Under the pieces are notes generated by a model that was given only the letters and a program-made list of their open reading frames with translations, ran no database searches and had not been told where the DNA came from. Position numbers and translations under genes: made by a program. Shown piece by piece: positions 3,396 through 35,527 of a stretch of DNA of 64,000 nucleotides (its first letter is position 1; the number at the start of each line of letters is the position of its first letter). The stretch is from the NCBI GenBank assembly GCA_006384855.1, contig VCJN01002216.1, forward strand, positions 1-64,000. Direction: 5' to 3'. Source of the stretch: Tetraselmis striata. Taxonomy: Eukaryota; Chlorophyta; Chlorodendrophyceae; Chlorodendrales; Chlorodendraceae.

Positions 3396-3545
3396 TCAGT
3401 ACCACGCGGGGCGCTCCCGGGCAGGCGGGCTGTGGGACCGCCCGCGGGTAGCCCCAGGGCTGTGCGAGCGGCGGGAGCGTGCGGGGCTGCTGCGCCGCAT
3501 GTCCTCCAGTTGCCCTGCTTGCCCCGGCGGCAGCTGGCCCCACTC
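3396..3545 (-). other. Last exon: Ser/Arg-rich basic tail
   Basis: The acceptor GGCAG|GAGTGG joins in phase 0 to the donor at 5155 and gives a tail of about 49 residues containing LEDMRRSSPARSRRSHS and ending RERPAWY before a TGA. Basic Ser-Pro/Ser-Arg tails often bind microtubules or are phosphorylated; that role is inference. Confidence 0.65.
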
Positions 3546-6499
3546 CTGCCAGAGGGGGAGGGGGGGGGGGGGGGCGACTAAGTTATTGGTGCGGTGTCAC
3601 CTCCCTTTGGTGACAATAAACGAATGGGTGCTGTGAAAGCCCCTCCGCCCCTGGCTGAATGCGCCACGGGTTCTTTGCATATCTGACAGAGGGACATACT
3701 GGATTGGCACGGGGGAAAACCCAATATATTTGCGCAATGCCCCAGCACGGTGTTATTAATAAATTATTTATACACAACAATGTAATAATGAATTACATAT
3801 TATAAGGCCATCCAGTAGTGCCCTGTACATGGACACGTATATACTGACCATAAAATGGGTATGAATTCCCTAAGTAAGATTGTCTGGTGGGCAATAGTAA
3901 ATTCTAAGGCCCCGGGAACGATATGGGCGTAGTTTTCTTAAGCACAGCCATAAGGGGTAGTGACTCTCATTGTAAAGTGCCTATATCACAACATGTCTTC
4001 CGGGCAATAGATACGCGGGAAAATTGGTTTCGGAGCATCTGGTGTGCGATTGCTGTGGTTTTGGAGCTGTTGGTGCGACCAATATGGTTTCGGGGCATTT
4101 GCTGTGATGTGAGTGTGGTGATGTTGGAGTCGGTGGTGCGGGCAATGTGGTTTCGGAGTATTTGGTGTGTCATGGTTTTGGAGCCATTCGTCCGGGCGAT
4201 GTGGTTTCGGAGTATTTGGTGTGTCATGGCTTTGGAGCCATTCGTGCGGGTGATGTGGTTTCGGAGTATTTGATGTGTCATGTTTTGGCGCCTTTTGTGC
4301 GGGCGATATGGTTTTGCCGGAGGCGCCATTTTGTGTGTGTGGACAGTGTGGTTTCGGAGTATTTGATGTGTCAAGGTTTTGGAGCCATTCGTCCGGGCGA
4401 TGTGGTTTCGGAGTATTGATGTGTCATGGTTATATATAGAGCCATTCTTGCGGGCGATGTGGTTTCGGAGTATTTGATGTGTCATGTTTTTGGAGCCATT
4501 CGTGCGGGCGATGTGGTTTCGGAGCATCTGGTGTGTCGTGGTTTCGGAGCCATTTGTGCGGGTGATGTGGTTTCGGAGTATTTGATGTGTCATGGTTTTA
4601 GAGCCATTCTTGCGGGCGATGCGGTTTTGGAGTATTTGGTGTGTCATGGCTTTGGAGCCATTCGTGCGGGTGATGTGGTTTCGGAGTATTTGATGTGTCA
4701 TGGTTTTGGCGCCATTCGTGCGGGCAATGTGGTTTTGACGGAGGCGCCATTTTGTGTGTGTGGACAGTGTGGTTTCGGAGCATTTTGTATTGTGAACTCT
4801 GCGATTTTTGAGCATATTATGTCATTATGTGTGATTTTGTGGCAATTACAGTCAGTGTGTCGAATTTCGTTTCAGAAGAGGACTTGGTGCCGGAATCATC
4901 GTTTTGTGCGGACTTGGACCGGAGTTGGTGCTGTTGGTGTAGAGCATTTCAACGGTCAAGTCAATTCGAGGTTCGATGTGCAGGTCATGAACAATTGGTG
5001 TTTCAGCTTGCCGTGTTGGCTATTGTGCAACTACCGGCGGCCTGCCCTGGATTGGTAATTGGGGCCCAATGCATGTGGGATGATAACTGTGGGAACAGGG
5101 CGACAAGTGGGTGGGTGGGTGGGTGGCGGGAGAACGATGGGAGGGTCCACCTGCAATGACGAGTCCAGCAGCGCGATTTCGCGTGGCAGCGGAAGAAGCG
5201 GAAGCGGTGGCCCCCACGCAACCGGAGGGCCTCGGAGCGCCGAGTGGCATCCCGCCTGCCCGGGCGCTCCCCGCGGTGCAGGCGGCACTCCCGCGCGAAG
5301 GCCCTCCCCGGGCGCCAGCTGCCCCAATAGGCGCGCTGCCGCCAGCGTTCCGCCGCCGCCGCGCTGTCCGGCCGCCAGCATCACCAGCGCGTGCAGCCGC
5401 CCGCTGCGGGCGCCCTGATGGCACGCACGCACATGACCCCCCCGCTCAGAGAAGCCCGTCCAGGCAACAACCCCACCTTCACTCGTCAAAGCCCCGAGTA
5501 CCCCAAGGGTGCCAATGTGGCGTTAAGGACAGTACTTCTGCTCCCAGAATCCGGGTACCGACACTTGGACAAGAACTTCGTAGTGAATCCGTGATGGTTT
5601 TCTTCTGATTTCGAACTGCGAGGGGAGGGCGTGTTCTCGTAGAAAATGCTCCCAACATCACATCGCCACCCATACCACTCCTCGTACAACCTGCCCAGGG
5701 GGACATGGGCCCGGTGGGCGCCACCTACTGTGTGATCATGGATTCAAGGCATCCACAGGTGAGAGCAAAGCCAACTACGGATGTGCAGAACTCCGGTTGT
5801 CCAGCGAAATGACAACTGGGGCACGCGCATGCAGCACAACCTGGTGCCTGAGGTGACAACATAAGGCTGCTGGGGCACCTCTACAACCCGTTGCCTACGC
5901 CTAAAGCTGAGCACGCGTGTAACCTACAGGAACATCGTTCGCTGCATGTTCTCGGTAGGTCTGTTTGCATTTGGCCTCTGGCAGGTAGGAAGGGTATTTA
6001 TTCGCGGTGTTCTCATCGCCGAGTCGGCACCCACAGGCAGAGCTTGACATACAATAGGCCACACGGGTAGGCGGGTACGCCATACACACAGTTCATGCAG
6101 CTATATGCTGATTTCATGGGACATGGGCCAGCTCGAATGGCCGGTTTGCCCATTTCTGGCATAGGCACTACCTGCAGCAGCTGGGCGAGCTCCGCGGGGT
6201 CGCCGGGCGGCGCGTTCGGGGGGCTGTCCGGCTGCAGGCCCAGCCACGCCGCCTCCAGCGAGTAAATTAGCTGCCGCGCGCTCAACACGCGCCAGCCGCT
6301 CGCTAGCCCCTGCGAGGCGGCCGGCCGCCAGCCAGGCCGAGGGGCAGGAGGGGGCGGGAAGGGAAGGCAGAGGCAGTGCGAGGCGGTGAGGGGTGCAGAA
6401 GTCGAGCGAGTAACACGGGCGGGTGGGTGGAGGCGCACGGTGGCCTTCCCGGGGTCGGAGTGCTTGCACTCGGTGGAAGTCGGCGGGCGGGCGCTGCGT

Positions 6500-6547
<48 letters not shown>

Positions 6548-9500
6548 TTTGGCGCACCCTTTGATTGGATTCATAGCATGATGAAGCATTCTTCCGGTTC
6601 AGATAAAAAGACTGTGATATTGATGGTTTGTGTACGCTGACATGCTTGTACTAGTCTGGGTGACCCCGCCGCAATTTCCCCCCCTTTTTGCCCCAAGTGG
6701 GGGAATCGACATCATGCGCAGCCCTGAGAACAGGTTGACGGCACGCCTGTCCGCAGGGGGACGGTCAAAAGGGGGGGGGGGGGGGGGGGGGGGCGTGGGA
6801 GAACAGAGGGCTTCCTTGCGGGCTGGCCCACCTCATCCGCGCCGTCCATGCTGAGCGTCGCGAGGTGCAGGTGGCCGCAGCTCTGCCGCCCCCGGATGTC
6901 CGTCACCTGCAGGACGCAGATAGCCTCTCCGTCAGACACTCGGGAAAAAGAGCGGTGCATGGTGGCGTCCGCCCTGAGCGGAACGATTGGGCGCCTTTCC
7001 CCGGCGGAGACTTTGTGCTTTTATTGGGGAGGGGGGGGGGGGGGGGGGGCTGTTGGGCGGGTGGGTTTAGGCGGGGGGGGGGGGGGGGGGGGGGGGGGAT
7101 CAAGGGTTTGCATTAAGTATCCGCCAAAGGTACCAATGTCAGATGCTCCAGCCGGATCAGCAAAACACCAATGTATCGAGTTGTAGATTCCCCATAAAGT
7201 GGAGCCTACACTACATCCATCCACTGTTTCCAGCCCCAATGCCTTGATGAATGAGGCGAGTCGGACCAAATCGCGATCTTTCACCGAAGTCGAAGTTTAA
7301 ATTGAATCCATCATTGGAGCCTCGAGAATCGAAAATCGGCCCGCGTCAAAGCATTGATCACCAAGATCAAAGTTCCGATTTTTAGCTCTGACAGCTTAAT
7401 GCAGACCTGTTGGGGAAAGAGATATGGGGGGGGGGGGGGGGGGGGGTGGCGCTCCGCACCTGCACACGGAGGCAGAGCGCCACGTGGCCGGAGCGCGCCT
7501 CCCTGCTCTGTGGCCGCAGCACCGCCCGCGCGAGCGCCTCCGTCTCGGCGGCGCTCCGCATCTCCCGCGCGCTCACCTGCACGGTCGACACTAATCAAAA
7601 CAACAGCAGTGTGTCCGACGAGCCCAATCATCCCAAATGACGGCGAGCTTCTGCATGTGGTGTACACCGCCCCCCCTTCCCAAGCACCGCCCCTGAATTT
7701 TTCACATACCTTCCTCGCTACTATTTTTTATTCATTATTATGTGGGGAAATGTTTGGCGTCGCGCCGCGAATCAAAAGCCTGCATCAGCTGCGCCCAGTA
7801 GTGGCAACTGGGGGCCGCCTCCCCGCAGGTAACCACAGCGGCACCAAAGACTTCGCCCCCGGGCGTGCTGAGCCCAACTGGCCCTCACTGGTTGCCATGG
7901 TGGAGCATGGCCGGAGGTGCCCATCACATAACTGTGGCGCGGTCGCTGGAAACATAGGTGGGTGGATGAAAAATGGCCGCTGGAAACACTGGGGGCGGGT
8001 GGATGGAAACAAAGGCGGCGGCGAGCTGGACGGCTGCTGCCCCGCGAGGTTCCACACACCCTCCTTCACGAGAAGCGGCCTCAGTGCTTTTCGGTGTGAT
8101 GAGCTTGAAGCGCAAGGCGGGGGGGGGGGGGGGGGGGGGGGGACATGCGGCGTGCAGAACGCACCGGCTGGGCTCCGTGGCGGGGCGCTCCTCCCGGCAG
8201 CACCGCCCCAGCCGCGCCCTCCCGCGCGTTGGCGTCCAGCAGGTCCAGCAGCCCCGCTGGGCTCGCCTCCACGGCGCTCACATGCACCTGCGCGCGAAAG
8301 GGGGGGGGGGGGGTGGGGGGAGGGGGGGTGGCAAAGCGGCCAGTCCGGACAGGTTCAGGGCTATAAGAACTAAAACCCTAAATTTCAAACCCTAAAAGTC
8401 AAAAGGAGGAGTGGGACCTGCTCCAGTTGGGTAAGTTTGGGCGTGTAATGACAGACAGTGTACAGTGTAGTGTCAGACAGTGTAGGAGCTGTACGAAAGT
8501 CAGCCACACCGTGACACACAGACACTAATTCCGTCGGTAAATTGAGTGACGGCGAGCAGCTTGACTTTCGCAATGCTTCATTATGAGGCACGTTCAACCC
8601 CCCGGGGAAGGGTGGGGGGGGGGGGGGGGGGGGGGTTTGTTGGCTGGGGAGGGGCAGCAGCGGGCTCACCTGCCAGGCGTGCACATGCGGCAGCTGGTAC
8701 AGGTCCTTGAAGAGCGCCTCCGACAGCGCGGTCAGCTTGCTCAGGCCGCCCACACCGCCCGCCACCTGCCACCGCATCCAATCAGCCACACGCTCTGCCA
8801 TCAGCCCATTCAGCAGGACCTTCTTCACGGATAGCAACAGGTTAGAGGGCGGAAGGCATCCGCGCGGACAGGCATTCCAAGGGGGAGGGAGTGGATTGGA
8901 TCTATGTGTCCAAGAGGAATATGGTTTCGGAGCATTTTGGGCTGCATTGCGCCTGGACATTGTGGTTTCGGAGCATTTGTTGTGTGTAAGGCATGCTTTC
9001 AGCAAGGTACATTCTATGCCATGAAGGCGGCATGTATGGTTACGGAGCATGGGTTACACTGACTGCTGAATAGTGTAAAGGGTGTACTGTAAGAAGGCAA
9101 CGCGTCTCCCGTGGGAGTCTGGGACTGCGATGAACTGCTCACTGTCGTACTGTACTGTCTGTCACTCCGGGCGGTAGTGCTGCGGTTGAGGGGAGAGGCG
9201 AGTGGCATAAAAGGGGGGTAAGGGGGGGCAACGCGCCAGCAGCTCCGCCGCCGGGTCGTGGGTGGCCGCCGCCGCCAGCAGCATGACGGTGTCGCCCCCC
9301 ACCGAGCAGCGCGCTGCCGCCGCCATCTCGGCGCTCACCGCGCCGTTGGCCTCCGGCCCCCAAACCGCGTGGTAGCGCCCCGTGTGGAACTCGCCGCTGG
9401 CAGAGTCCGTGATGCGCACCGCCAAGGGGCCCACCTGGGGGCAGCGCACATCGGTGATGGGCCGAGACACATGTGTGCTGAGGGGTGAGCACTACTTGAT

Positions 9501-9717
9501 GCTGCGGATATATAGCTGGAACAATCGGTACATTTAAGCGTGGAATCGTCGCGGAACGGTTAGAGAGTGACACATAGTTACAAATACAGGTACATTTTTA
9601 TATATGGTTTCAAAATTATCAAGCAAAATAATGGTTGCAATGTGACAGATGCATACATTTACTGCGCTATCTACGGACATCGGTGTACACGAAAATATTT
9701 TTACCTACAAACACAGA

Positions 9718-9776
<59 letters not shown>

Positions 9777-12700
9777 AGGCGACCAACGGTTACATAATGA
9801 TTCCGCCATGTGTATATCGGTATCATCGCGCGGGCATTGCCAGGGCATGCACGCAGGCCCCTCCCCCACTCACCCGCTCCACCGACACCGGCCCACCGTG
9901 GTGGCCCGCCACCGCCTCTCGCAGGCAGCAAACCAGCTTCACTTCCGGCGCAGCAGCTGCGCGCTGCTGCCCGGACACCGGCGGTGATGGCGGCGGCGGC
10001 CACGCGTGTGTAGGTGGAGCCTCGCTGTCAGGGGCGGCTGACCGCACACTCGAGCGCGCCTGCGGGGTGGTGGACGCCGGGAAGGAGAAGTCCGCGGTGC
10101 GGGGGAGTGCGGTCGGGGCGAACTGGGGCTGTGGCGGCGGCGGCGGTGGTGGAGACTGTGTAGCCGGCGGCGGTGGTCGAGCTGTCGGCAGCGACGAGGG
10201 CGATGGCGATGGCGGCGTTGGGTGCGCGCCCGACTGCCGGCGCTGCTGCGCGCTGTGGAGCGCCTCCACGACGTCTGCCAGCTGAGCCTGCGCACCGGGA
10301 CCAGCAAAGGCGGGAGAATCAGCACCTGCTGGGGGCTCGGCCGGCCAACCCCTGGAGGTGAGGCAAGACGAGGTGAGGAGGGGGGGGGGGGGGGGGGCGT
10401 TGAGGGTGAGGGTGAGGATGATGGTGATGACATGACATCCAGATAAATATATAATCACAAGTAGGCACTTTTCTACACTTTTCCGCTTAAATATCCCTAC
10501 TGCTCGCGTATGGCTTTAACCTCGGTAACTTGGGTAGGAACTGTTGTAGGAACTGCTTTGGGAACCGAAGCCCTGACATGCCGCATACTCTCACGTACCG
10601 TAATAGGTACCGCAGTACGTACTATTATCCAGCGAAGCGCCGATTTTTCGGCGGTGAGCTTTATTGCCGTACGGGTACCCGTATACTGCAGCGGATCGGG
10701 CCTATAGGTGCATGACTAAAGCGCTTATCTACTGGAATGTACTACTAAGTACTATAATCCACCCACCCACCCACCCGCCCACCCGCCCGCCCACTGTCCT
10801 TAATTACACAGCCGTCCGATTACGATCTCATGGTTGGGAGGCTATGAGTACTGGTACTCGCTACTCGCTGCTGGTAATGGAAAAAAAAACTCTGGTACTT
10901 CAAAGCTCTGGCAATGCGAACGCTCGCTGCTGGTACTGGTACTCGCTGCTGGTACTGCTGGTGCTGGTACTGGTACTCGCTACTCGCTGCTGGTATTAAT
11001 GGAAAAAAAACTCTGGTACTTCAAAGCGCTGGCAATGCAAACGCTCGCTGCTGGTACTTCAACGCGCTGGCAATGCAATTCATGGAACTGTAGGCCAGTG
11101 ATATAGAACCCGTTCTTTTAAAATTTTCTGAAAAATCGACGCATCGCTGATTCAACTTCCAAGTCACTTCATATAGCAGTCATGGTTCAATCAAGTTCTA
11201 TGGGTCGGAGCCTTGGGGGAGGCCCACAGCGTCGAACATGCAGCAACACAGACGGGACGCTCCATGGCAGGGGAGATGACGGCCCCGGTGCATGGCACGC
11301 AAGGCAGTGGCAAGCAAGCACTGGTTGCTAGCTGACAGGGTGGCGGGTGGCGGCGCGCCTGCAGCTGCGCGACGCGGCCCTCCCGCAGGGTGGCGCCCTC
11401 CAGCGCGGCCCGCAGCCCGTCCTGCAGCTGCTGCACCTCCGCAAACACCTGCGGCCCCACCCACCCACCACCCGGAGGCGCCCAGCCATCCGCACATCCA
11501 TTCAGTGCATGGCTTGGTCACAGACAAGTTAGCACATGCACCAGCACCTCCCGAGTGGGAGAGAGCAGAGACTCAAGTGGGGTTTTACGTGTCAACGCAA
11601 GAGACGTAACGTAAGAGACGAATCGCAGCCTTTCAAACTTCTTTAACGTCTGACATAAACGAGCCTACAGGCTTATTTTCCGGGTTTGTATAGATGCGCC
11701 AGTACCCGTGTCCTAATGGGAAGGGGAGTGGGGAGAAGAGGGGGGGCAAAGGGGAGGGGAGGGGGCTCACGGCCTCCATCTTGGCAATCTTGGCCTCCGC
11801 CGTGGCGATGCGTGCCCGGGCCGCCTCAAGCTCGCTGGCAGCGACGGCGGACGTGCGCTGTGCCGCCGCGAGCTGGCCCTCCAGGGAATCCCGCTCCGCC
11901 TGCCCCGCATCCACCACGAAGGCCACCAGAACATAGAGATAAGACGCGCCGCCCCGTCCCAGCCACAAACAAAAGCACAAGCACAGCGTCGTCCGGGCAT
12001 ACACACGCGAAAGTCGGTGCCATTTTGGGTGGTAGATGCGTGCATGCGGGAGGCGCGTGAGTGCTGCGGCAGGCCGCACCCGCGCGCGCCGCGCCAGCGT
12101 GTCCGCCTGCGCCAGCTCCGCCTCCAGCCGCAGCGCCATCTGCGCGCCTGCACGGAGCTCCTCGCACTGCGCGCGGAGCTGGCGTACGTCTGCTGCCGCC
12201 GAGTCTGACGCAGCCGCCTCCCGCCCCTGCACATCACGGGTGGTGTCAAGGGTGGGTTAGCAAGGAGTCGTGTAGTCCAGAAAAGTCACTTTGGGAGGGA
12301 TGGCAGGATAACTTGCCTTGGCAGACCTGCTGGAGAGGTTCTTCAGTGCCGCCTGCGCCGACAAGCACCGCTGCCCACTCAGCTCTGGGACTCTGGCAGC
12401 ACTGGTACGAAACCCTAAACCAAACCGAAACTGCCCGTATTTCTGCTCCGAAACCACAACACCAGCACGAAATGCTCCGAAACCGCAGTACCCGCTCTAT
12501 ATGTTCAGAGATCACAATGCGCGAATGTCGGACGATGCCTACACTGAATGCTCCGAAACCAATTCCTCATGTCGGGACAGTCATCACATGCGCGGAGTGG
12601 TTTTTATGCAGGACTACTAGTGCGCAAGGGCTGAACCAGACAACGGGGATTGGGGGGGGGGGGGGGGGGGGGGATGCCTCAAGCTCCTGCAGAAGCTTCA

Positions 12701-15700
12701 TTTCGGGGTCCTCCTCCTCCTCGTCCCCAGAGCCGCTCCCTGGGGCGGTGCCCTTTAGGAGCCCGCTTGCATCGGCCGCGAGAGCCACGCTGCGAATGCG
12801 CTCCCGCAGGCGCGCCGCCTGGGACGACATGCCATCCCGAAGCGGCAGCGGCGTGTTGGTTTGCTCATGATAAGTAGCTGATGAAACTGTCTAGGGGTGC
12901 CGGCGCTCCAATAAGAGCCCGTTGTATATAGAACTCCAAACTGAACCTGCATACAAGCTATGGAAACATTCCATGTAGTTCCGGGTTTGCTTCGCCTAGA
13001 TGTGACTTGTGGCAGGTATGGCGACCTCTTATTCGCAATGTTCTTACTCGTTCCCGGGGTGTCATGCTCACGCGGGGGCGCGGGCAGCGGGTGGGCAATG
13101 CGCTGCGCTTGGGCCGGGGGGAGGCCGGGGGGCGCACCGCCAGATACGCGGCGTCGCGCTCTTCGCGGATACACTCCACCTCAGCCGCCGCGGGCCGTGC
13201 CTGCGCCAGTTGCGCCCGCAGCTCCTCAATGGTGGAGCGCGCGGCGCGCAACTCCGCCCGCAGCTTGTCGTGCCCTTCTTCCGCCGCCTGTCTGGAATCC
13301 TGGCCGGACTGCAGTAGCGGGTGGGCGGCCGGGGCCTCGCTGCGCCGGCCTCCATCCGGAGACGGCACCGCCAGGGCGCTCCAGTCGCCCGCCGGTCCCC
13401 CGCCAGCCTGCAGCCGGGCGACCTCCGCCTCCAGGCGCGCCACCTCAGCGATGCGGTCCCCCAGCTCGCGGTCCGCTGCCGCCAGCGTCTCCTTCAAAAG
13501 GCCCAGCTCCTCACGCAACGAGTCCACCTGCGCGGCATGCGGTCATATATATACTCATACCCGCACATACATACACAAATAAAACGCTATACATAAATAC
13601 ACACACACACACGCACACACACACACACACATACATACATACATACATACATACATATGTTTGTATGCGCATACATATACATATGCACACGTAGATGTAC
13701 ATATGTGGTGCGGCAGCAGGGCGGGTCATCGCTCGCCCACCTCTATCTATCTATAATTCCTCTATAGTAGGTCAAGTTGTATGATGGTCAAATTGATACC
13801 AGTTGACGTCAGAAGTTACCCCATTTCAAGGATTCGGTGATGCCCTTCAACCACTCGCAGCGTCATGTATTTGACACCCCTCCCAGTGCTGATATTGGTG
13901 TATCGCCATCCAGGTGTAAGATATTGCTGGCGCGTGCTACTAAAAGGCATGAAATTAAGCCAAAAGATACAGATAAGCAATCTTACAAGCTATTGGCAGT
14001 CAGGCACTAGCGATACTGGCACGCACCTCGGCCCGCATGGCCTCCGCCTTCGCCCTCTGCTGCGCCGCACGCCGCGAAGCGAGGTCTCCCATGACGCGTG
14101 CACCCGCGCGCACCCAGCGGCTGCGCGCCATGCTGTGGTGGCGCTGCGCGCTGATGGCGCTCCGGGGCGAGGTGGCAGGGCTGCTGTCCTCATCTGCGGG
14201 GAGAACCACCTGCGGCGACAAAGGGGGGGGGGGGGGGGGGGGGGGCATCCGCGCAACCACCGTCAGCGCACACCTACAAACGCACCCCGCCAACCTAGTC
14301 GCCAACAAGAGCATTCCTAGGGACACTGCCTGCCACAGTCAGCCCCTGGGAACGATATGGCGCGTTCACTGTCTTGCAATGGGTGGACGGCATCATCCCT
14401 CACATACGGAAGGTGTACTCCGATCATCCTTTCGTCATTTTGGGTTCAGCGGTTCACCCATGTTGGGGCGCGGTAAAGGTCTTAAAGCATCTACACCTAT
14501 ATGATGTGAGGTTGCTCTCACGCTGTCCCGCAAAACTTGTCTCCCTCCCGTAAACCACCTACAGCTCCATTTAAGGTCTCTCTCTCTCTCTGTGCACAGA
14601 TTCCTCAACTCTGACAAGACATTTTTCAAGACAAGAAAAAGAATGCCGTATTAAAGTTTGAAATTTGACACGCACGCACAGACCATTTGGCCTTGCCAAA
14701 AGCCCATCCAGCAGGGACCATGCACTGCACCGACCGCACCTCCGTGCGCGCCGCCTCGAGCGCACGCTCCGCCTCAGCTCGGCCACTTCTTGCCACCTGC
14801 AGCGCCTGCGCGAGCTCCGCCTCCCGGTGCAGCGCGGCTGCCGAGTTGGCCGCCCCGGCCTGGGCCAGCTCCTCCCTCAGCCCCCGCAACTCCTGCCGCA
14901 TATCCCGCAGTTCCGCCCGCAGCTGGTCGCGCTCCGACATCAGACGATCCGCGCGCGCTTCCGCCTCCGCGTTGGCCGCCTGCCAGGGGAGTAGAGAAGT
15001 GCGGTGTGAGACTGGAGGGATAGCCATGCCACCGCCCCAGCCGCAACGCACCCAGCCTGAAAACTTTACGAGCACCAGAAGAGGGCAGGCAGAAAAGAGC
15101 ACCGGCCAAGCTCAGGGGATTAGGTTTCGGAGTATTTGAAATGGGCGGTGTGGTTTCGGAGCATGCATGGTTGACATTATGCGTGTGGGGCGTCATGTGT
15201 GCGAGGTTATAGATTCACATTGCCAGTAGTTTAGGCATTGTTGTTTCAGAGCATGTGATTTGGGCTTCGGAGCATTTGGCATATCGAAGCGGGCTGTGTG
15301 GATTCGGAACATCTATATGTTGAGAGAGTGCTTTCGGGGCATATGGTATGATCGGATTGCACTCACTCAGGAGCAGCTGTGTGAGTGTTGTGGCTTGGGA
15401 GAATGTGAAGCAGGCGGTATTATGGTTTCGGAGCATGAAGCGCTTGCTGAGAGGTCGAGCATTGCACGCTTGACGCAACAGTTGTCCGGATGATGCTGTG
15501 CGGGCGCCATCAGGTGAGAGCTACGAGGGTTGCAGCACCGGCGGCAAGGGGGGGGGGGGGGGGGGGGAGGCGCACCCACGCGCCATCGCCTCTCACCCTG
15601 TCGCCCGCGTTGGTGTGCGCGTTGATGAGGGAGAGCAGGCTGGCGAGGTCCGCACGCAGCTGGCCTGCCGCCGCGCGCAGCTCCGCCGCCTCCGTCTCCG

Positions 15701-18700
15701 CGCCCGGCGCCGGCTTGAGCAGCTCCAGCAGCAGCTCCGCACCGTCAAGCACCCCGAGGTACGCTGCCTGCGCCTCTGCCAGCCGTCCGGCAAGCACCTC
15801 CCGCTGGCCCGCCAGCTCCAGCACGCGCCCCTGCAGATGCTCCAGCCGCGAGTTGAGCCGCTCAGCCAGCGCCTCCTCCTCCTCCCCCTCCCCGCCCTCG
15901 CTCTCCGCCCCCTGCGTCGCCCTGCTCAGCGCCCGCAGTAGTTCCTTTGCCTCGGCCAGGGACGCCTTCGTGGCAGCCAGCTCGTGGCGCAGCGCCCGCT
16001 CCGTCTCCTGTCGCCGCACATCCCCTTCCACATTGTCCACACAGCCGTCGCTGATGCTGGCTTTGGCGCGGCCCAGCTCCTGCGCAACAACAATAGCGGC
16101 TGAGCTTACTAGGCAGGGTCGCAGAAGGCCACCACATGTAGCGCGGCTTTAGAGGCGGCCAGGACGGCGGAGGGGGGACGGGAAGGGGCACCTGGTGGAG
16201 TTCCCGCAGGAATCCTGGCGCAGCTCCAATGGTGCCGAGTGCCTGTGAGGGAGGAATGAAAGCACAGGCAGAGTGAAATTCAGCCTGGGTGGACCGGCAC
16301 TTCACACGTGCGCACTTTTGTGCTGGAAAGATGCAGTTGCAAAGGGCCGCGCTTCCACAAGTGTCATCTCCGTCCATACTGTTGTTTTGCGCATGCAGTG
16401 GCCGCCTCCGTGGCCACGCTCGGGAACGGTGGGGGAGTGAAGGGGGGGAGGGGGGTCATCTTTGCACCTGCAGCGCTGCCTGCGCCTCGCCCTCCAGGTC
16501 GTCCAGCTGCGCAAACAGCGCGCGCGTCTGCGCCTGCTCCCGCCGCAGCGCCCCCCGCAGCGCCTCCGCGTCGGCGGCTGCCGCCCGACGCGCCTCTAGC
16601 GCCCCAGCCAGCTCCGCGCGCATTGCCTCCGCCGCCGCGCGCCCATCCGTGACCGCTGCCCCCAGTTGCGCCTCCCTCAGCCGCCCCACCTCGCGGCGCG
16701 CCTCCTCGGCTGCCGCGTCTGCCAGGAGCGCTGCCTCAGTCGCTGCCTCAGCGTCACGCCGCAGCCGATCCACCTCTGCCCGCAGGAGTGGCACTTCGTC
16801 GGGACTGCTTCCCGGGGAGAATGGCGCAGAGCCCTCAGCGGGTGGCTCTGCTGACTCCCGGATTGCGTGGGGCTGGGCGCCGGATGCGGAAGAGGGGTAC
16901 TCAAGCGGGTGACGTGGAGACGAGGGCGGCGGCAATAAGTCAGCGCCCTCCCCCAACGCCTCCTCCGCCGCAGCCTTCCAGTGCAGCGCCTCCTCCGCCA
17001 GCGTGCGGTTGTCCACCTGCGCCTCTACCAGCCGCTGCTTCAGCAGCTCCAGGTCCGCGGCCACGTCGATGCTGCCCACCGCGACAGCGCTCCGCTGCGC
17101 CTCCAGCCACGCCAGTGCCGCCTCCAGCCCGCCCTCAGCGCAGCCCGACTGCACGCTCTCCGCGGTGCTGCGCCGGCTGCTGCGCGCGCTTCCGCCCTCG
17201 CCCGCGTGAGACAGCCGATGCAGGCGCAGCACAGAGCGCAGCAACGCCTCAAGGTCGCCCGTCACCGCGGCGGCAAGCCCCGACAAAGACTCCTCGGAAC
17301 CATCATCGCCAGCGGCCAGCATCCGCGCGGAACTCAGCTCCGCCCGCGCATCGCTGACATCACCCACGAGCGCCGCCCAAAGCTCGGCATCCGACGCATG
17401 CGTGGCTGCATTTGGGAGGCACACCGCCGACGCGAGCTCATCGCGAAAACTAGCCGAAAGCGCTTCGGGCTGTGGCCCTTTTCCGATGTCGCGCCCCGGG
17501 CTTTGAGGCGAGATCATGACCTGCATGCGACCCTCAGGAGCGGAAGGTGGCGTGATGGAGCCTGGCGGATGCGGCGACATTGTCGGCAACAGTCGTTGCA
17601 GGGGCGCCAGAGCTTGGAGGCCGCGCGCGGTTGCGTCCGCCAGCTCGGCAGCCAAGTGGCGCTGCGCTGCTGCCGCGCCGGCGACCGCCTCCATGGCGCG
17701 TCCCAGCGAAGCTCCAAACGTTTCGGGCGGAAGTTCGCCGGCGTCGACCGCGTTGCCCGTGGTCGATGGAGTTCTGGGGTTTCGCTCGCTGCCGGCCCGT
17801 AGGGTGGCGGCCATGTCGGAGAGCCGTTTCGCGGCGGTGGTAGAGCGCTCGGGGGCGGCTGCTATATTGCTGTCGGCAAGCGCGGCAACGCCGGCCATCT
17901 CAAGGAGGACGTCGCTCCGCGCGTGCAGGTACGCGGCGAGCTCGCGCACCTCCGAGAGCGCGGGGGCCGTAGCGGCCGCCTCAGCGGAGAGTCGACGTGA
18001 CAACTCGACGAAACCAGCCTCCGCGGCCGACTCGGTGCGCCTCAACTCCACCATCAAGGATCCCCGCGAGTCGAGCACCGTCGCCAGCTGACCCTGCACA
18101 GCGCGCAACTGGCCCAAGGTCGCCTCGTGGCGCGCCAACGTCGCGTCCGCCTCGGCTCGGGCGGAGGTGGCGTCGCGGCCAGCCTCCGACGCCTGCCCCG
18201 CCAGCAGCACCAGCCGCGCCTCCAGTTGGTCGATGTGCTGGCGGAGCTGGGCTGTCTGCACGACCGCCGCCTCCGCCTTGGACGCCTCCGTGTCGCGCTC
18301 GCCCAGCAGCCGACCGACCACCTTCCGCAGCTGCTGCACCTCCTCGTCGGACAGGGTGCCGCCATCCGTCGATGACGAGGCACGGTGTCGACGCTGCTGA
18401 CCCTCCGGTGTCATGGCGTCTTGCAGCGTGCTCGCCGCCAGCTGGGTCACAAGCTCGGTGAGGGCGTCCCCGGGCGAGGGCGGTTGCGCGCCGGGCTGCG
18501 ATGACCTCGAATTGCCTTTCGCGGGGCTGTCGCTCGTTCCCTCGCCTCGTCTGAGAGCGTCCCTCGAAAGCATGACGAGGTGGGCCTCGAGTCGGTCGCG
18601 CGCGACGCTCACCTCTCGAAGGCGCTCGCGCAGCTGGTCCGCCTCTTGCGCGGCAGAACCCTGTACAAGGCGTGCGGTACAGGTGAATTAAACTAAACTC

Positions 18701-21700
18701 GTCGTACTCGCTAACCTGGCAGAATTTGCGCATCGATTGCAGGGTTGATCGATTTAGGTCGCACTTACAACCTGGGACCAAAGCAATCGGAGCAAGTCGG
18801 GGTCTCCCCATCCCAAGCTGCCAATTGCCGCAGAGCAGATACGAAAAAGTGAGGGGTGAAACGCCAGCCATGCGGCCGCGAGTATAAAGGCAAGCCCGAC
18901 CCAAAGCTACAGGGAGCGAAATACCTTTTCGAGGATAAGGGCGTCGCATCTCCGCGCTGCGGTCTCTGCCGCCGCTTTAGCGATGCCTACCTCATGGCGC
19001 AGCTCTCGCTCGCTTCGCTGAGAGGCTGTCAACTCGGCGCGAAGAGAAATGCACGTCTGCTCCACTGATCGCACACGGTTGGCCGAGCTCGGCGGCGATG
19101 TGGTTCGCGCCGCTCTGACAGGCGACCACTCCCGCAGGGAGCTGCTGGCGATGCTGTGGTCGGTTAAGTTGTCTACGGCAAAGCTCACTTCTTCTCCATC
19201 GCCTTCAAGATGCAAAGCGGGGTGGTTGGCCATGCTCTGCAAACTATGAAGACGCCAACCCTCCACCTGCGCCTACGATACGGATGCGGATGGAATGATC
19301 TTGCATTGGGTCAATCTCTTTCAGTGTGTCAGTTTGATTGCCCTACTGTTAGAACAGGAAACACAGGCATAAACAACAATGCGCGGACACACCAGTGGTG
19401 CATGCTGAGCCGGTATATAATAATGGCCAGCGTGTAGTTGAGTGCATGCTCTGTGCGCGCTATCAGGCATTCAGTGCTGCTTTGCAAAGCTCGGCATATC
19501 CTAGAGCACACCTCCAGCATGGAGACCTCGCACACCAGATCGCGGTTGTGCTCCTCGTGCGCGGCGAGGTCGACGTCTCTCAGGCTGAGCTCCGCCCGCA
19601 GCTGCTCAATCTTGTCCATCGCGTCCTGGACGGCCTCCCAGGCATTGGAATCCTCATTACCCACGGCGCCCTACAGACGCAGGGCCCAGGGGTAGGGCGG
19701 GCGTCAACAGCTCAGCGAGGTGCGTAAGGTCAATGCCAATGACATTACGCAAGTACATCCAGCCCAGGCAAAGAGTTTCCAAATGATTGGGCATGCGCTA
19801 CCTCCAGCCACTTGGCAATTGTCTTCGTTGGCGCTCTCAGATTTCGCAGCTCCCGAACCAGCTCCTGCACCAGAGCAGACGCAATCAGTGTGTACAAACA
19901 AGCATGTTCCTCAACTTGTATGTGTGCCTTGCAGGCAGGCCTGGAAGGGTAGGTGCGGCCCCACCACTCACCCGCGGCAAAACGTCAGGAGCGTCATTGG
20001 ATCCAAAGCGCTGCACAATGTTCGCCGCCCGTTCCACAAAGTCGCGCAGGACAGTGAGGAAGGAAGTGCGTGCATGCAGAACTCGCTGCAGCTCCTCGGT
20101 CTCTCCCTGCATGACCGACCAGCGCCCAACATTAAATGATAGCAAGGGCGGGCCAGAATCATGCCTGTAATGTGAAAGTGCGAATACAGGAAGCGTGCGT
20201 GCCTTGAGCCCGGTCCAAGCCTCCTCGCTGCTTAGGGTCCTTCGCATCTTTGCAGCCTCCAGCTCCGCGCTCTTTCTCTGCAACACAGCCGCATCACACA
20301 TAATTGAACAATTGCGGGGAAAATTCGTGGGGGGCGCCCCTGTGTTGCATGTGAGGTGCCTGGATCCAGGGCCACTAGCCGAGAAAGTTGCAGACGCGCC
20401 ATACCTCCAGCTCCGCTGTCGCAGAAGACAGCTGCTGCTTCAGCTCTTCCACTTGGCGCACCGTTGCAGCAGCCTGAGACAAGTGTGCAACACGGAAAGT
20501 GGGACCAGACGCCCTGAGCGAGGGCAATTAACCTCTCGCCACCTCGCCATCTCCCAGTCAGCCCCATCACCCCACATAGGCCACAGACTCCAGGGAGGTC
20601 AGCGAGACACCCACCCGTTCGCCCTGAGCTGTGGAGGATTCCAAGGCTGACTGCAGGTGGAGGCGCAATTCTTCTGTTTCGCGTGTCTTTTGCTGCACTT
20701 GCTGCAACTGGGCACAGAGCGGGGCGGCGGCGTCAGCAGAGACAGCAATTCAACCTCCGGATGGTGCGGTGACGGCGCGTGTGCCTGCCTTAACCCAGCA
20801 GTGTATATGTTATAAGGCAGACGGGTCAGCAGCATACCAGCTGATGCGTGGACTCTGCCTGCCGCTGCTGAGCGCGGTGAGACTCGGCTTTGGCTGCCTG
20901 GAGTGCCTCTTCAAGGTCGCGGATGCGGGCGTCCTTCCTGTCCCTGCCCTCATTCAGTTGCTCTGCTTGCTCGGTCCTCGCTTGCTGAGCACCTGCCTTG
21001 GCCTCAGCAAGCTTCTCCCGTAGCTCCACAATCGTAGTAGAAGCGGTCATTGCGTCCTCCCGCAACCTGGACACCTCCGCATCCCGTTCGCTCAGCTGCC
21101 CACCCATGCGGGATGCCTCAGCATGGATCTTGGCCAGGCTGTCGCGCATGGAATCCAGCTCCTGCAGATGCTCCCGGGCTGCGGTCAACGCTGCCTCCGC
21201 CTTGCGCCGCTGGGTCACCTCAGCACGGAGCTCTTCCTCAACCTTCCTCACCTCCGCCTTTGCTGCAGCTTCTGCCTCCTTGGCCTTGCTCAAGTTGCGT
21301 TGCAGCGACTTGGAGAGCTCCTCCGCCATATCGGCGCGGTCGCGAAGCACGCTCTTCTCCGTGCCCAGCAGGCTGACAGCGGCCTCCAGCTCTGCACATT
21401 GCTTCTGAGTGTCCAACACATCCACACCCTAGTGAGCGCTGAGGGACAGCCCCCCCCCCCCCCCCCCCCCCCCAAACCTCCTCCCCGTACCCATGGCAAA
21501 CATCACCATCATGCACAACAAGCACAGTCACCTGCATTGCCTGGACAGCGGCACTGCTGTCTGTCAGCTGCCCCCTGTCCCCGCTCCTCATCGCCTCCAT
21601 GCTGCTCACAGCGTCATTGTAAGCTACCAACAGTGAGTGCACCTGGTAATCATGGGGCCATGCATGGCCGCCGTCAGTTTCCATCGGGGTGCTGCTGTTG

Positions 21701-24418
21701 CCAGGGGCGGGGTTGTGCTACTCGCACTGCCGACTGCAGATCAATGGCCGGGATGCCGGTGCACTCACCTGGGCGTCGAGCGATTCTCCTTCGATCCCGG
21801 CGTCTTTGATCCGGCACTGAATGTCCGCACTGCCAGCGGCAGCGGCCTGCGCTTTGTCCCGCAGCACCCACACCTGCGCCATCACCCAGCATGCTACGCA
21901 TCAGCCGCTGCCGTCGTTTGCAGCGTCCAAACGACTACAGAGCCTGAACTGCCACTCATGACGTGTCGCGTGAGGTTCCCTTCAAACGAGGCGCACCGTC
22001 TGCCTCAGACGCGCGTTTTCCTCCTCGAGGGTGTCCATGTCGCCGGCGGATGTGTAGGAAGTCCTTTTCGGCGCCGAGCCCAGCTTCCCAAGGTCCATGG
22101 ACATGGAATCATCCATGGTGTACGACGTTGCAGCGTCAATGTTCTGAGCCTCAATGCACTGGACCTCCTCGAGCTCCTGTGTGAGACGCTTGTGCTGCGC
22201 AGCGGTGAATCCAAGAGGGTGTCAGCGCCCCGGGGGGGGGGGGAGGGGGGGGGGGGGGGTGCGACAGCACCGGTGGCCTGCAGAACAGTCAAGTTCCTGC
22301 CAGGAAGGTGTTGCCGGAGGAACACACTGCGGCAAACAAAGCACTGGTGGCATTATAATCCACACCTCGCTCTGGAGGTCCGCCAACTCTGATCGCGTGT
22401 GCTCCAGCTCCATTGTGGAGGCCTACACAGCCGGGTTGCTCCATGTCAATGGCAGGGGCCACAGCATTGCAGTGTCCAAAGCACATGTACACGCGAGGAC
22501 TCTGAACAAGACGGCCTGTCACGCTCCTCCGACTCACCTCAAGCTCCTGCGACACCCGTAGGAGTTCGTCCAACCCCCTCTCGTTGCCGCCCATCAGCTG
22601 CCGCTGTGCGACAAGCCTCACCTGGCGCGGAAAGGACATTCCCATTGCGCATGACAAATCGCTGACACAGCCTTCTCCAACAGAAATGCAGGAGGGCAGT
22701 TTGCCGGGCGGCGCCGCTCACCTGGAGATCATTCAGCTCGCGCTGCGCCAGCTTCGCCGCATCGTACACCTGGAACAACACCTGCTGCGAGCGATGTGCC
22801 TCCTGCGGACGACGGGCCAGCAGTGTGCCAAATGCATCAGCACACAGCAAGATCAAGCGCGGAGGTTTTAGCGCAATGGGATCAGCTTTTCTTTTTAGGG
22901 GCTGGCAGTGGCCGGCGCATAGCCACTTCCATGCTACAGCAATGGGGAGATCTCGGGAAGAGACATGGGAGGCGTATGATGGGAAGGGTGAGCGAGGTGT
23001 GGGGGGAAGGGGGGGGGGGAGGGGGGGGGTAGAGCATGACATGCACCTGGCGCGCGCTCAAGGCGTCTGTTTCCGCCACAGTGGCAACCGTGCGAAACAC
23101 TGTAGCTGCCGCTGACCCGTGCACCTCCTCCGTTGCCGCTGACACCAGCTGCAGGAGCTGCTCCACCTGCCACCCACACGACTGTTAACGCATGGGCCAC
23201 AGCTGCTGGGCTAAGCCCGGCCCGCAATGCTTAGGTCCTGCCCCCCCCCCCCCCCCCCCCCACCCCACCTGGTTGGCCAGCTGAGCATTGGTGTCTTGCA
23301 GATCGGACACCGCGTCGCTGTATCCTGCCATGCCAGGCCTGGAGGAGGAGGGCGCCATGCCGGGTGAGCTCGCGGCTTCCATCTCCTGCAGTCGCGCCTC
23401 CAGAAGCTCTATCTCCCCCTCAGCATCCGTCAGCTGCCCCTTCAGCAGGTCGTTCTCTCCCTGCAGCGCCCGCATGTCGCCCTCGCATTGTTCCAGCACC
23501 TCCGCCGCATGCGCTCGCATCCGGGCCTGCGCAAAGCAGGCATCCACCCAGCCATCATCGCCCAGTCATCATTGCCTGCAATCTGCCTCCTTGTCCCCAT
23601 TTCTGATGCAGAGGCCATGCGTGCCGCATGACTGCCCAGTTGAGAACGCTGCTGAGCGCGCACCGCGGTATCACTTGCAGCGGACGCGAGCTCTGCCTCC
23701 AGCTGCTCCACCTTTGATTGTAGTCGGCGCACTTCGAGCAAAGCGGGTGGCAGAGGCGGCTGAGTATCCGCGGAGCTGCGCCTACTCTCCAACGCCCGCA
23801 TGCTGCAATGCAACATGCATGTCAGTGTGCATGGACATCAAAGCGGCAAAGTGCGCAGAGCCCCGGGTGCCAAGGCGAGCCCCACCTTCCAGCAGCGGAG
23901 GTGCTGTGCTGCTCAAAGCGTTGCTTCAACGAGCTAACGGAGCCAGTCTCCCGCCGCGGGGACGCTCTGTGGGCCTGCTACGCCCACACGTACGGCTCAG
24001 CCCCTGGCGCATGCTGGCGCTTCTGGTGCGTATCGCTGTTGGCCCAGCCGGCAGCACTCAAATCACGAAGTCGCACATGAACGCATCGCCAAGACGCTGT
24101 GGTGTTTCACTGCCACACAGCGGGACATACCGCTTCTGTCTCAGACGCGCTCTCCTCAAAAGAGTCGCCATGTGTATCCTCCAGACTGCCTGTGGAAACC
24201 CAGCGGCCTTTGCTTCATGCGTGTTTATATGACCCCATCCATCCTCCCAACTCCCACGCATACACCCTCCGCCATCGCACAATCGCACCTTCCCGGCCGC
24301 TCCCCTCCTCGCTCTCCTCGCCGTCGCGGCTGGACCGGGCCGACACACCCAGCCCATCACCGCTCCCGGTCGTGTCGCTGTCGCTGTCGCTGTCTGGGTC
24401 GCTGCTGCGCAGCGGCAT
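3396..24418 (-). CDS. Giant coiled-coil protein with a C-terminal, kinesin-14-like but motif-less motor domain
   Basis: Start ATG at 24418 opens an acidic Ser/Asp leader; stop at 3396. My exons, in transcript order: 24418-24289, 24189-24131, ~23976-23886, 23802-23664, 23526-23269, 23166-23047, ~22800-22722, 22621-22538, 22422-22366, 22194-21997, ~21872-21766, ~21643-21531, ~21430-20838, ~20710-20610, ~20472-20404, ~20280-20204, ~20110-19971, ~19867-19803, ~19675-19515, ~19265-18925, 18660-16468, ~16243-16191, ~16081-15602, ~14981-14742, ~14211-14028, ~13529-13137, ~12834-12674, ~12231-12086, ~11912-11770, ~11452-11345, then the motor exons from 10351. Where checked, splice sites are GT-AG and phases agree (for example phase 1 at 24289/24189, phase 2 at 23886/23802). 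Most exons up to 11345 are heptad-rich Glu/Arg/Leu/Ala coiled coil, for example LREKLAEAKAGAQQARTE. Total about 2,900 residues. N-terminal coil plus C-terminal motor is the kinesin-14 layout. It could instead be two adjacent genes, but I find no stop or new start between the parts. Confidence 0.72.
4026..4790. repeat. 54-bp tandem array in the last intron of the giant gene
   Basis: About fourteen units beginning GTGGTTTCGGAGTATTTG, each near 54 bp, with point changes. A second phrase, GGAGGCGCCATTTTGTGTG, occurs at about 4318 and 4739, so there is a higher-order period near 420 bp. Because 54 is divisible by three, long frames stay open on both strands (an 18-residue repeat on each), but the array lies between two phased exons (5155 and 3545) and is best read as intronic. 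Each unit carries the window-wide GTTTCGGAG motif. Confidence 0.88.
6504..6545. repeat. (GA)n microsatellite
   Basis: About twenty GA dinucleotides within an intron of the giant gene, upstream (on the transcript) of the exon at 6308-6171. Confidence 0.95.
9721..9773. repeat. (CA)n microsatellite
   Basis: About 25 CA dinucleotides in the intron between the first two motor exons of the giant gene. Confidence 0.95.
10750..11085. repeat. CCCA/CCCG run and a ~123-bp tandem duplication in an intron
   Basis: 10760-10792 is a CCCACCCG-type run. A block with ACTCGCTACTCGCTGCTGG, an A-run and CTCTGGTACTTCAAAG starts near 10849 and again near 10970, a period of about 123 bp, followed by a third partial piece. 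It lies between the exons at 11345 and 10351. Confidence 0.8.
12440..12562. repeat. Cluster of inverted TGCTCCGAAACC motifs
   Basis: Three copies of the dispersed 12-mer in minus orientation (near 12446, 12472 and 12548) inside an intron of the giant gene. Confidence 0.8.
13560..13690. repeat. (CA)n / (CATA)n microsatellite
   Basis: ACAC and CATACATA runs directly upstream, on the transcript, of the exon starting near 13529. Confidence 0.9.
15120..15440. repeat. Degenerate cluster of the GGTTTCGGAGCAT motif
   Basis: At least seven variants (for example near 15124, 15151, 15244, 15266, 15303, 15331 and 15425), spaced irregularly, in the intron between the exons at 15602 and 14981. Spacing is about 20-95 bp, unlike the regular 54-bp array at 4026. 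Confidence 0.75.
16468..18660 (-). other. Giant central exon (about 731 codons) of the coiled-coil gene
   Basis: An uninterrupted minus-strand frame bounded by the acceptor TACAG at 18661 and the donor CAG|GTGCAA at 16468. It starts GSAAQEADQLRERLREVS and continues as Ala/Glu/Arg heptads broken by Ser/Pro linkers. It is by far the longest exon of the gene; its neighbours are 17-160 codons. Nothing enzymatic is visible. Confidence 0.85.
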
Positions 24419-34117: not shown

Positions 34118-35527
34118 TCACGGTGGAAACCTTTGCGGGTGGCTCGCCATAGCAGCAAGGTATGCTGGTGAGGTCGAGATATGTTTGTAACGTTCTGACA
34201 GCATATAATGTTGCATCAGCGGTGAATACCGCATCGTTTCGTAGGGCATCCAGTCATCTCCGGTTGCTGGAAAGTTATGGAACCTTACTTTGAACAGCAA
34301 GGCTTTGCCCTTTTCATACAGTCTGGGGTATAGTGCCAATTTACAGTCAGTGATGTCCGCAATGATTGGGTCATCAGTTCTGCGCGTCTGTCTGCTAATC
34401 AAGGCATCGGGTATGTCTGTTTGCGCAGATATGGTATCCCAGAGTCTCAGTTTAGAGACATGAAATACTGGGTGGCACTCAAGCTCAGGTGGCAACTGTA
34501 TTCTGTAGGCCTGAGGATTCACCTGTTCGATGACCTCATAAGGTCCTACATATCGTTGTTTGAGCTTAGGATACTTCTGTCCTCTTATGATCATATCGTC
34601 AGTTGTTATCATTATCTTATCACCGATCTGAAAAGTTATCGGCTGCTTATTGTTTTTATCATAATAGTGCCTTTGGTATTCTTTGGCAGCAATTATGATA
34701 TTTTCATGCACCAAATTGTGTATATATATCCCGTATTTTCGACAGAATGTCTACGGTAGTCTCTCTCACTCCAGTTTTGGGGTTCACAATATCTATAACC
34801 GAGGATGGAAGCCGTATATTGCCTGGAATGGAGTAAATTTTGTTGTCGACGATTCTGTGTTATTGTAATTGAACTTAGCAAGGGATAGGTAGTTCACCCA
34901 ATCCTGCTGGTTATTGTAGCAGAATGCTCGGAGCAACTGCTCAATTATCTTATTCAATATTTCAGTCTGACCATCAGTCTGCGGATGGTAAGCAGTATTG
35001 AGGTTTAAGGTTGTGCCAAGCTGTTTGACCAGTTCTTGGAAGTATGATGATGTGCACTTGACATCTCTGTCTCCTATCATACAGGTACTGAGACCGTGGA
35101 GTTTGTATATATTTTTGATGTACAGTTGTGCCAGTTCAGGAGCCGAGATGGCTTTCTGGCATGGTATAAAGTGTACCTGCTTTGTGAACAAATCCACAAA
35201 AGTGGCAATACAGTCAAAACCATCAACCGATGGCAAATTTGTGATAAAGTCAAGACTGAAATATTCCCATGGTACAGTTGGTGTTGGTAGTGGCTGTAAA
35301 GCCGTTGCTGGGGCCTGCGTATGTTGTTTTGTCAGCTTGCAGACTTTACAGTTTCGGATATATGTTTTTATGTTTTGGTGCATGTGCGGCCAGCAAAAAA
35401 TTCTTTTGATCATGTTCTCTGTCCGGAGTATACCGTTATGGCAAGCCGTCTTAATATCGTGATGTTCTTTGATGATGCTCTTTTTGAGTTCATCATCTAC
35501 AGGAATAAATATTTTGTCAGCTATCAT
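34118..35527 (-). pseudogene. Ty3/gypsy integrase with C-terminal chromodomain-like region (interrupted)
   Basis: The 35527-34793 frame has the integrase zinc-binding H-H-C-C set (KEHHDIKTACHNG ... RNCKVCKL) and the DDE core (SLDFITNLP, MIGDRDVKCTSSYF, YHPQTDGQTEILNKIIEQ). After a frame change near 34750 the 34714-34118 frame has the GPYEVIEQVNPQAYRIQLP / HPVFHVSKLR barrel seen after integrase in Ty3/gypsy elements, then VRFHNFPATGDDWMPYE, a chromodomain-like strand set. RT and protease are missing upstream on this strand. A retroelement relic, not a host gene. Confidence 0.9.

Follow-up and report, generated by a model that had tools for sequence, protein, structure and literature searches.

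A minus-strand gene in the analysed window, a 64,000-nucleotide stretch of DNA from the green alga Tetraselmis striata, is predicted to encode a coiled-coil protein of about 2,400 residues whose C-terminal head appears to derive from a kinesin motor domain, perhaps of the kinesin-14 type. The head would have lost ATP binding and would act as a non-catalytic tether, a reading to which we assign a probability of roughly 0.57. Kinesin heads devoid of an ATP site are known in a few groups (yeast Vik1/Cik1, animal KIF26/VAB-8). If the reading is correct, the algal protein would independently add a photosynthetic lineage to these groups, with a head diverged beyond the reach of Pfam; it would mean that a kinesin head can persist as a structural module after catalysis is lost, and that counts of kinesin-derived proteins based on family models may be too low.

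Gene Structure and Protein Layout

The gene model runs from 24418 to 3396 and comprises 2,409 residues and 27 splice junctions, with 24418 marking an uncertain 5′ end; the length of about 2,900 residues proposed in an earlier note on this DNA was thus overstated. In order, the modelled protein consists of a coiled coil, a proline-rich linker, the dead head, and perhaps a basic tail; once spliced, the motor-like domain measures 328 residues. The upstream coiled-coil part (11337..24418, minus strand) contains 19 model exons, the first being 24418-24289, the last 11448-11337, and the largest 18660-16468 (2193 bases). A hydrophobic signal with a period of 3.5 reaches at least three times the mean in 11 of the 22 segments of 84 residues preceding the linker, and Pfam returned only sub-threshold coiled-coil matches for this part. 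The linker shares an exon with the first motor-like strand, EVKLVCCLRE (9874..10328, minus strand, open frame, acceptor 10328 inferred from phase). Between the coiled coil and the head, 36 prolines fall within model residues 1857-1986 (about 130 residues), and this stretch directly precedes EVKLVCCLRE, where a neck helix continuous with the head is lacking.

The model was obtained with a home-made gene finder that was constrained to a single gene closing with the stop codon at 3396, with any ATG allowed as start, and whose training partly used coiled-coil stretches of the same gene. An earlier output of 139 mostly tiny exons was discarded because introns had been made too cheap. Six motor exons were recovered (9434-9233, 8794-8670, 8287-8165, 7576-7460, 6906-6832, and 6309-6172) and, with either of two penalty settings, were linked to the coiled-coil exons upstream. 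Exons 10328-9874 (in its true frame) and 5414-5151 were omitted by the finder and added by hand, since their phases fit. It is very unlikely that the motor-like exons belong to a gene separate from the coiled-coil gene: although about 1 kb of repeat-rich sequence (10329-11336) lies between the two groups, the linker exon was skipped, and a finder returning one gene that ends at 3396 makes the joining weak evidence, the finder was free to begin at any ATG and still chose the joined gene under both settings, and the junction is phase-compatible in both haplotypes. The putative last exon (3396..3545, minus strand) encodes an Arg/Ser/Pro tail with the stop codon and is open in both haplotypes. The case for its being part of the gene is weak, given a pN/pS of 0.72 (1 synonymous (S)/2 nonsynonymous (N) changes), a preceding 1.6-kb intron that contains a 54-base tandem array, and the imposed model end.

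Loss of the Nucleotide-Binding Site

The three motif replacements quoted in the earlier note are present, namely AAAATHDP at the P-loop, QSREARSGH at switch I, and LSMDGADE at switch II. The residues aligned to these three motifs read AATPAAEL, EARSH, and TLSGAD and do not make up a working nucleotide site; the P-loop has lost its lysine and threonine, switch I its two serines, and switch II its aspartate. The patterns GxxxxGK[ST], G[QSVA]Tx(1,2)GK, SS[RK]SH, and D[LMI][AG]GxE are absent from the six frames of 3396-11448. The loose form SxRSH has two occurrences there, one inside an intron (10928) and one within the last, tail exon (3476), and the second haplotype has a single SSKSH string between exons (C2891:116987). 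Conserved columns that lie outside the nucleotide motifs are retained in 27/67 cases, not significantly more often than those inside them (7/22; Fisher P 0.61).

The helix that usually faces the microtubule has also changed at two basic positions (R to G, K to E). On a bolder reading, which we regard as less likely than not, the head, perhaps once a kinesin-14, has given up its customary microtubule-binding face along with the ATP site and now merely caps a giant coiled-coil rod as a structural element, neither a motor nor a Vik1-like partner.

Evidence for Kinesin Descent

Standard searches did not recognise the domain. A Pfam scan of the joined motor returned 0 families at E up to 10, including neither PF00225 nor PF16796 (Microtub_bd, which we take to be the family holding Vik1), and phmmer against the PDB gave 0 matches at E up to 10. 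In whole-genome searches, the locus is absent among the matches listed for PF00225 (164 matches) and has no row among the 88 matches of PF16796; PF12499 found no match, and its controls gave none either. The earlier note named the lack of any kinesin match in profile searches as refuting; taken literally, stock Pfam gave that outcome, and a signal emerged only in profile tests with controls, in which one type of profile failed. This was the sharp emission profile, in which seven of the eight settings showed no signal, the reversed sequence outscoring the true one in those seven, and z 3.8 (0/400) in the remaining one.

A softer substitution-matrix profile was chosen after this failure, the reason being that a sharp profile penalises the very catalytic positions that have been lost. 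Its whole-profile score stands at z 5.4-7.5 and was reached by 0/500 composition-matched shuffles in all six settings, local scores being weaker (up to 9/500 shuffles). None of 2000 permuted exon orders matched the score of the true order, and 22 other sequences gave whole-profile z values of -4.8 to 3.2 versus 6.9 for the motor. With hhalign, 0/100 shuffles reached the observed match (E 0.0057 local, 0.0088 global), for which the stated probability is low (6% local, 2% global, and 0.8% against a set of seven kinesins). HMMER run without filters gave E 0.0036 with a 49-row profile (1/2000 shuffles as high) and E 0.025 with a seven-row profile (14/2000). These scores show a similarity to kinesin that is collinear over the whole motor and goes beyond composition.

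The nine minus-strand exons that had been read as a kinesin motor form a possible layout with open frames, and their agreement is more than chance; individually, five of the eight motor exons are without a clear profile signal of their own (z < 2). The strongest single-exon signal belongs to 8165..8287 (z 4.74; 0/200 exon-internal shuffles), whose VHVSAVEASPAGLLDLLD is the equivalent of VxVSyxEIYNExxxDLL, followed by 6172..6309, the equivalent of the NINKSL...SKLTxLLQ region, which ends in AELAQLLQ (z 3.12; 0/200). Exon 9233..9434, which carries the equivalents of the pre-P-loop strand and the P-loop, scores z 2.66 (3/200) and has a second copy in the genome at 89% identity. Lower values were found for the switch I equivalent at 7460..7576, with its NxxSSRSH replaced (z 1.78; 9/200), for the equivalent of the GIIPRAxxxLF helix region at 8670..8794, identified from gene model and alignment as GGLSKLTALSEALFKDLY (z 1.44; 15/200), and for the switch II equivalent at 6832..6906, where GKLxLVDLAGSE has become GHLHLATLSMDGADE (z 1.29; 23/200). 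Exon 5151..5414, encoding the last motor-like strand and helix and then a proline-rich extension, is open in both haplotypes, scores z 1.06 (29/200), and has a second genomic copy at 95% identity. All of these exons lie on the minus strand.

Besides the profile scores, the positions of introns speak for kinesin descent, as evidence of a different kind. The phases had been described as mostly 0, which holds for six of the seven motor introns; one is in phase 1, and the start of the third exon had to be corrected to 8794. Three of the seven (columns 132, 218, and 292 of the profile, all phase 0) are common to recognised active kinesins of the same genome. The intron 5′ of exon 8165..8287 lies at column 132, as in locus L047, that 5′ of the switch II exon at column 218, as in locus L052, and that 3′ of exon 6172..6309 at column 292, a position common to nine kinesin loci of the genome. 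Under random intron placement, such agreement has P 0.014 by count, 0.0028 when weighted, and 0.0016 for both.

The earlier proposal is supported in that a long coiled coil ends, C-terminally, in a domain of kinesin origin that lacks a nucleotide site. It is improbable that the head is an unrelated alanine-rich alpha/beta domain of coincidental kinesin likeness. The missing family-database match, weak hhalign probability, failed sharp profile, and biased composition would all fit such a domain, but none of the composition-matched shuffles, permuted exon orders, or 22 other sequences attained the whole-profile score, and the intron positions are common to kinesins.

Relationship to Kinesin-14

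Kinesin-14 membership, implied in the earlier note, is suggested by the tree, in which the dead head groups with kinesin-14 motors in 939/1000 UFBoot trees, the kinesin-14 set having been taken from the first tree and reference sequences. It is not claimed here, as 14 of 40 realigned shuffles also fall among kinesin-14 (1/30 for shuffles without realignment), which leaves the identity unproven. The position of the head after a coiled coil, at the C-terminus of the gene model, is that of kinesin-14, with a proline-rich linker in between; the kinesin-14 neck helix runs straight into the head.

Within the tree, the dead head sits on a branch of length 4.2, an extreme divergence, and is sister to the kinesin-14-like motor L052 (C86:131000-135000) in 609/1000 UFBoot trees, whereas in a FastTree alternative it adjoins the KCBP group. 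L052 resembles the dead-head gene in its phase-0 introns at columns 218 and 292, and differs from it by an intact P-loop (GQTGAGKT) and a filamin repeat preceding the motor. Several active kinesin-14-like motors are present in the genome, which also gives many chlorophyll a/b-binding matches, in keeping with the green-algal origin assumed in the earlier note. No relative was confirmed in a viral contig collection with a kinesin query, nor in viral and prokaryotic contig collections with two short peptide patterns each from the dead head.

Known Systems and Proposed Role

The non-catalytic motor homology domain suggested in the earlier note has a precedent in yeast, where the motor homology domains of Vik1 and Cik1 bind microtubules without an ATP site (PMC4338441). 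As in the dead head, ATP-binding and hydrolysis elements are missing from these domains of the two Kar3 partners, which lie C-terminal to a coiled coil. Vik1 and Cik1 form heterodimers with Kar3 and attach to microtubules, and they are much smaller than the algal protein, with one Vik1 fragment ending at residue 647 (PMC4338441). The algal protein in turn differs, on a comparison by description, by the proline-rich linker before its head. The Kar3-Vik1 coiled coil is thought to reach right up to the heads.

A partner of the Vik1/Cik1 type, in which the rod and an active kinesin-14 would pair through their coiled coils and dead and live heads would alternate on the microtubule, is unlikely here. 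The C-terminal head without an ATP site after a coiled coil, the active kinesin-14-like motors of the genome, and the yeast precedent (PMC4338441) speak for it; the roughly 130 residues with 36 prolines between coiled coil and head, the two basic residues lost from the usual microtubule face, and a tree that does not prove kinesin-14 speak against it. Because of this linker and the lost residues, a loosely tethered adaptor is likelier than a neck-coupled, Vik1-like partner head.

KIF26A/KIF26B and worm VAB-8 (kinesin-11) likewise have kinesin heads in which no P-loop is functional, and they are counted among the non-motile kinesins (PMC12646758). They differ from the dead head in belonging to another kinesin family. 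The KIF26/VAB-8 motor is not located at the C-terminal end. Plant KAC proteins, kinesin-like proteins of actin-based chloroplast movement that show no microtubule-dependent motility in vitro and bind actin (PMC7513868), resemble the algal protein in their photosynthetic lineage and C-terminal class. The dead head differs from them in that Pfam fails to recognise the domain. KAC proteins retain recognisable kinesin motifs. Judged by titles and abstract openings, which are not proof of absence, the literature offered no recognised green-algal kinesin lacking a P-loop.

The best reading is that of a tether of the same general kind as Vik1/Cik1 and KIF26/VAB-8, yet loosely coupled to its rod. An ancestral kinesin motor domain would have lost ATP binding and been kept as a C-terminal head, which may still fold like a motor head and, placed where a long dimeric rod ends, bind its target independently of nucleotide. 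Rod and head could then tether or space a cytoskeletal structure; if the protein touches microtubules at all, the basic tail may be the part that does so. To judge from its sequence, the head is probably a fixed attachment point and not a moving motor.

Constraint between Haplotypes

In the second haplotype, the full model stays open over its 2,408 codons, the sole stop being the terminal one, and none of the 27 splice donors and acceptors is lost; the linker exon (9874..10328) differs by one 6-base in-frame gap. The motor core has a pN/pS of 0.32 (12 S, 10 N), its nonsynonymous changes (10/22) being below the site share (P 0.0067), and the same holds for linker and motor together (17/43, P 9e-6). 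Constraint on the coiled-coil part is similar to that on the motor (pN/pS 0.34; 28 S/27 N).

The alternative of a former kinesin in decay, with its motor part released from useful constraint, would suit the extreme divergence and wholly lost P-loop, as well as the two motor exons with nonsynonymous changes only, 6832..6906 (0 S/1 N) and 6172..6309 (0 S/3 N). It is nevertheless highly improbable, given that neither haplotype carries a stop or frameshift, that nonsynonymous changes are depleted in the linker and motor and in the motor core, and that the coiled coil is under similar constraint. The switch I exon differs by 5 S/0 N and exon 5151..5414 by 6 S/2 N. In the introns of the motor region, the haplotypes differ at 199 of 3528 sites, with an additional 177 gap columns.

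Gene Model and Coding Constraint

The minus-strand coiled-coil gene that ends in a kinesin-like head lacking ATP-site motifs (referred to as the dead head) extends from about 24418 to 3396 in a model built with a home-made gene finder and corrected by hand. The finder's training set consisted of kinesin exons from this genome and five coiled-coil stretches within the gene itself, and its model was forced to terminate at the 3396 stop codon. It joined the coiled-coil exons and six motor exons in one gene; the three hand corrections concern one fused large exon, the linker exon at 10328-9874, and the exon at 5414-5151. The model comprises 28 exons and 2,409 residues with no internal stops, and the earlier note's figure of about 2,900 residues is unsupported. 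The model is uncertain at its 5′ end and in its last exon. Arrays of a 54-base unit lie at 4134-4735, within the last intron, and this stretch varies in length between the two haplotypes.

A second copy of the gene, most likely that of the other haplotype, lies on contig C2891 and was aligned. The same 28 exons in this copy give 2,408 codons with a single terminal stop, and all 27 splice donors and acceptors are intact. Among the model exons the sole real length difference between the copies is a gap of 6 bases, located in the proline-rich linker; the introns lying between 10328 and 5151, by contrast, show differences at 199 of 3528 sites and contain 177 gap columns. Non-synonymous (N) differences are depleted, relative to their share of sites, against synonymous (S) ones in the motor core (pN/pS 0.32; 12 S, 10 N; P 0.0067), in linker plus motor (0.25; 26 S, 17 N; P 9e-6), and in the coiled coil (0.34; 28 S, 27 N; P 8e-5). 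The gene, motor exons included, is coding. Constraint is uneven by exon, with 5 S and 0 N for switch I, 0 S and 1 N for switch II, and 0 S and 3 N for the next exon.

Evidence for Kinesin Descent

Searches of the joined motor exons retrieved no Pfam family, a check named in the earlier note, and no PDB chain by sequence, both at E values up to 10. As these stock searches were empty, a dedicated profile was built from 49 motors, namely seven reference kinesins and 42 same-genome loci picked among the matches listed of a PF00225 genome search (164 matches). Many of the kinesin matches listed are paired on two contigs, and the assembly therefore probably contains two haplotypes.

HMMER without filters scored the dead head at E 0.0036 with this profile (1 of 2000 shuffles equally high) and at E 0.025 with the seven references only (14 of 2000). 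With hhalign, E was 0.0057 at a stated probability of 6%, the score of 26.9 (shuffle mean 13.6, standard deviation 2.3) being reached by none of 100 shuffles; global mode gave E 0.0088 and a probability of 2%, again with 0/100 shuffles as high. Substitution-matrix scores of whole-profile alignments yielded z values of 5.4 to 7.5 (0/500 shuffles in each of six settings) and those of local alignments 2.7 to 6.4 (0 to 9 of 500). A sharper profile produced no signal in seven of eight settings, and the softer one was adopted only after that failure, a selection that has to be weighed. The 22 control sequences (coiled-coil windows, window ORFs, and ORFs from C2891 stretches) ranged from z -4.8 to 3.2, compared with 6.9 for the dead head. 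When the eight motor exons were permuted intact, the true-order score was reached in none of 2000 trials, and shuffling one exon at a time located the signal in exons 2, 4, and 7 (z 2.7, 4.7, and 3.1), the remaining five giving 0.3 to 1.8.

Intron positions provide a second line of evidence. The motor introns align to profile columns 29, 96, 132, 179, 218, 245, and 292; six of the seven are in phase 0, and that at column 96 is in phase 1 in the final model (the placement test took it as phase 0 and found no match there). Of 64 introns inferred in other kinesins, 54 score well, and among these exact phase-0 coincidences occur at columns 132 (locus L047), 218 (L052), and 292 (nine loci). Under random placement, at least three such coincidences arise with P 0.014, an equal weight with P 0.0028, and the two together with P 0.0016; among 120 rigid shifts of the intron set, two reach the count and none the weight.

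Family Placement

In the IQ-TREE phylogeny the dead head lies within the kinesin-14 group, in a 15-member clade with support 100, on a very long branch (4.2); its neighbours are exclusively kinesin-14s in 939 of 1000 UFBoot trees, with L052 as its sister in 609. FastTree also places it among kinesin-14s, but adjoining the KCBP group. The kinesin-14 likeness put forward in the earlier note is favoured by the C-terminal position of the head and two introns common to L052, yet 14 of 40 realigned shuffles likewise fall in kinesin-14 with FastTree (branch lengths 3.7 to 7.1, mean 5.8, versus 4.0 for the true sequence), and membership is not proven.

L052 itself (C86:131000-135000) carries a filamin repeat (PF00630, E 1.7e-8) upstream of its kinesin-14-like motor in the same stretch. 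Two other kinesin loci with intact P-loops show odd switch regions in composite alignment rows, L049 (C1583) with DMSSVE at switch II and L053 (C2675) with STRAH and DLGGST; these are either alignment artefacts or further atypical motors.

Lost Motifs and Possible Function

In the alignment, the P-loop block GQTGSGKT corresponds to AATPAAEL in the dead head, switch I SSRSH to EARSH, and switch II DLAGSE to TLSGAD, so that the switch I arginine, second serine, and histidine and the switch II glycine are kept. Where HVPYRDSKLTRLLQ is aligned to NAPPGDAELAQLLQ, one arginine and one lysine of the usual microtubule face of kinesin are missing. Conserved columns are retained at 7/22 within the nucleotide motifs versus 27/67 outside, a difference that is not significant, and a sparing of structure over catalysis is therefore unsupported by the data.

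A period-3.5 signal is present in 11 of the 22 windows that precede the linker and in none of the six that follow it. The protein would thus be a long coiled-coil rod bearing, beyond a proline-rich hinge (about 130 residues, 36 prolines), a terminal head unable to cycle nucleotide. Because of this hinge and the lost charges, the head may act as a tether rather than as a stepping partner, and the tail following it (predicted pI 11.5), provided that the last exon is genuine, could be a binding site for microtubules or for other acidic partners.

Non-catalytic kinesin heads as such are already known. The heads of yeast Vik1 and Cik1 can hold microtubules without nucleotide cycling and alter their partner's movement (PMC4338441), and VAB-8 is likewise described as a non-motile kinesin that promotes cargo pausing (PMC12646758). 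The dead-head architecture with such decay in an alga was not found in the open-access literature searched. In a 2006 survey, three of the 23 Chlamydomonas kinesins remained ungrouped (PMC1434745); unlike the dead head, these were detected via recognisable motors.

Neighbouring Features

The window belongs to contig C1791. Close to the end of this contig, a match to the tyrosinase central domain (PF00264, E 8e-11) lies immediately downstream of the gene, on the minus strand at 970-1794. Ty3-like retrotransposon remains, also on the minus strand, lie at 34118-35572 and include Integrase_H2C2, an rve core below its cut-off, and a Tf2-1-like SH3 domain. The source is a photosynthetic eukaryote, as indicated by 63 matches to the chlorophyll a/b-binding family in the 224-Mb genome.
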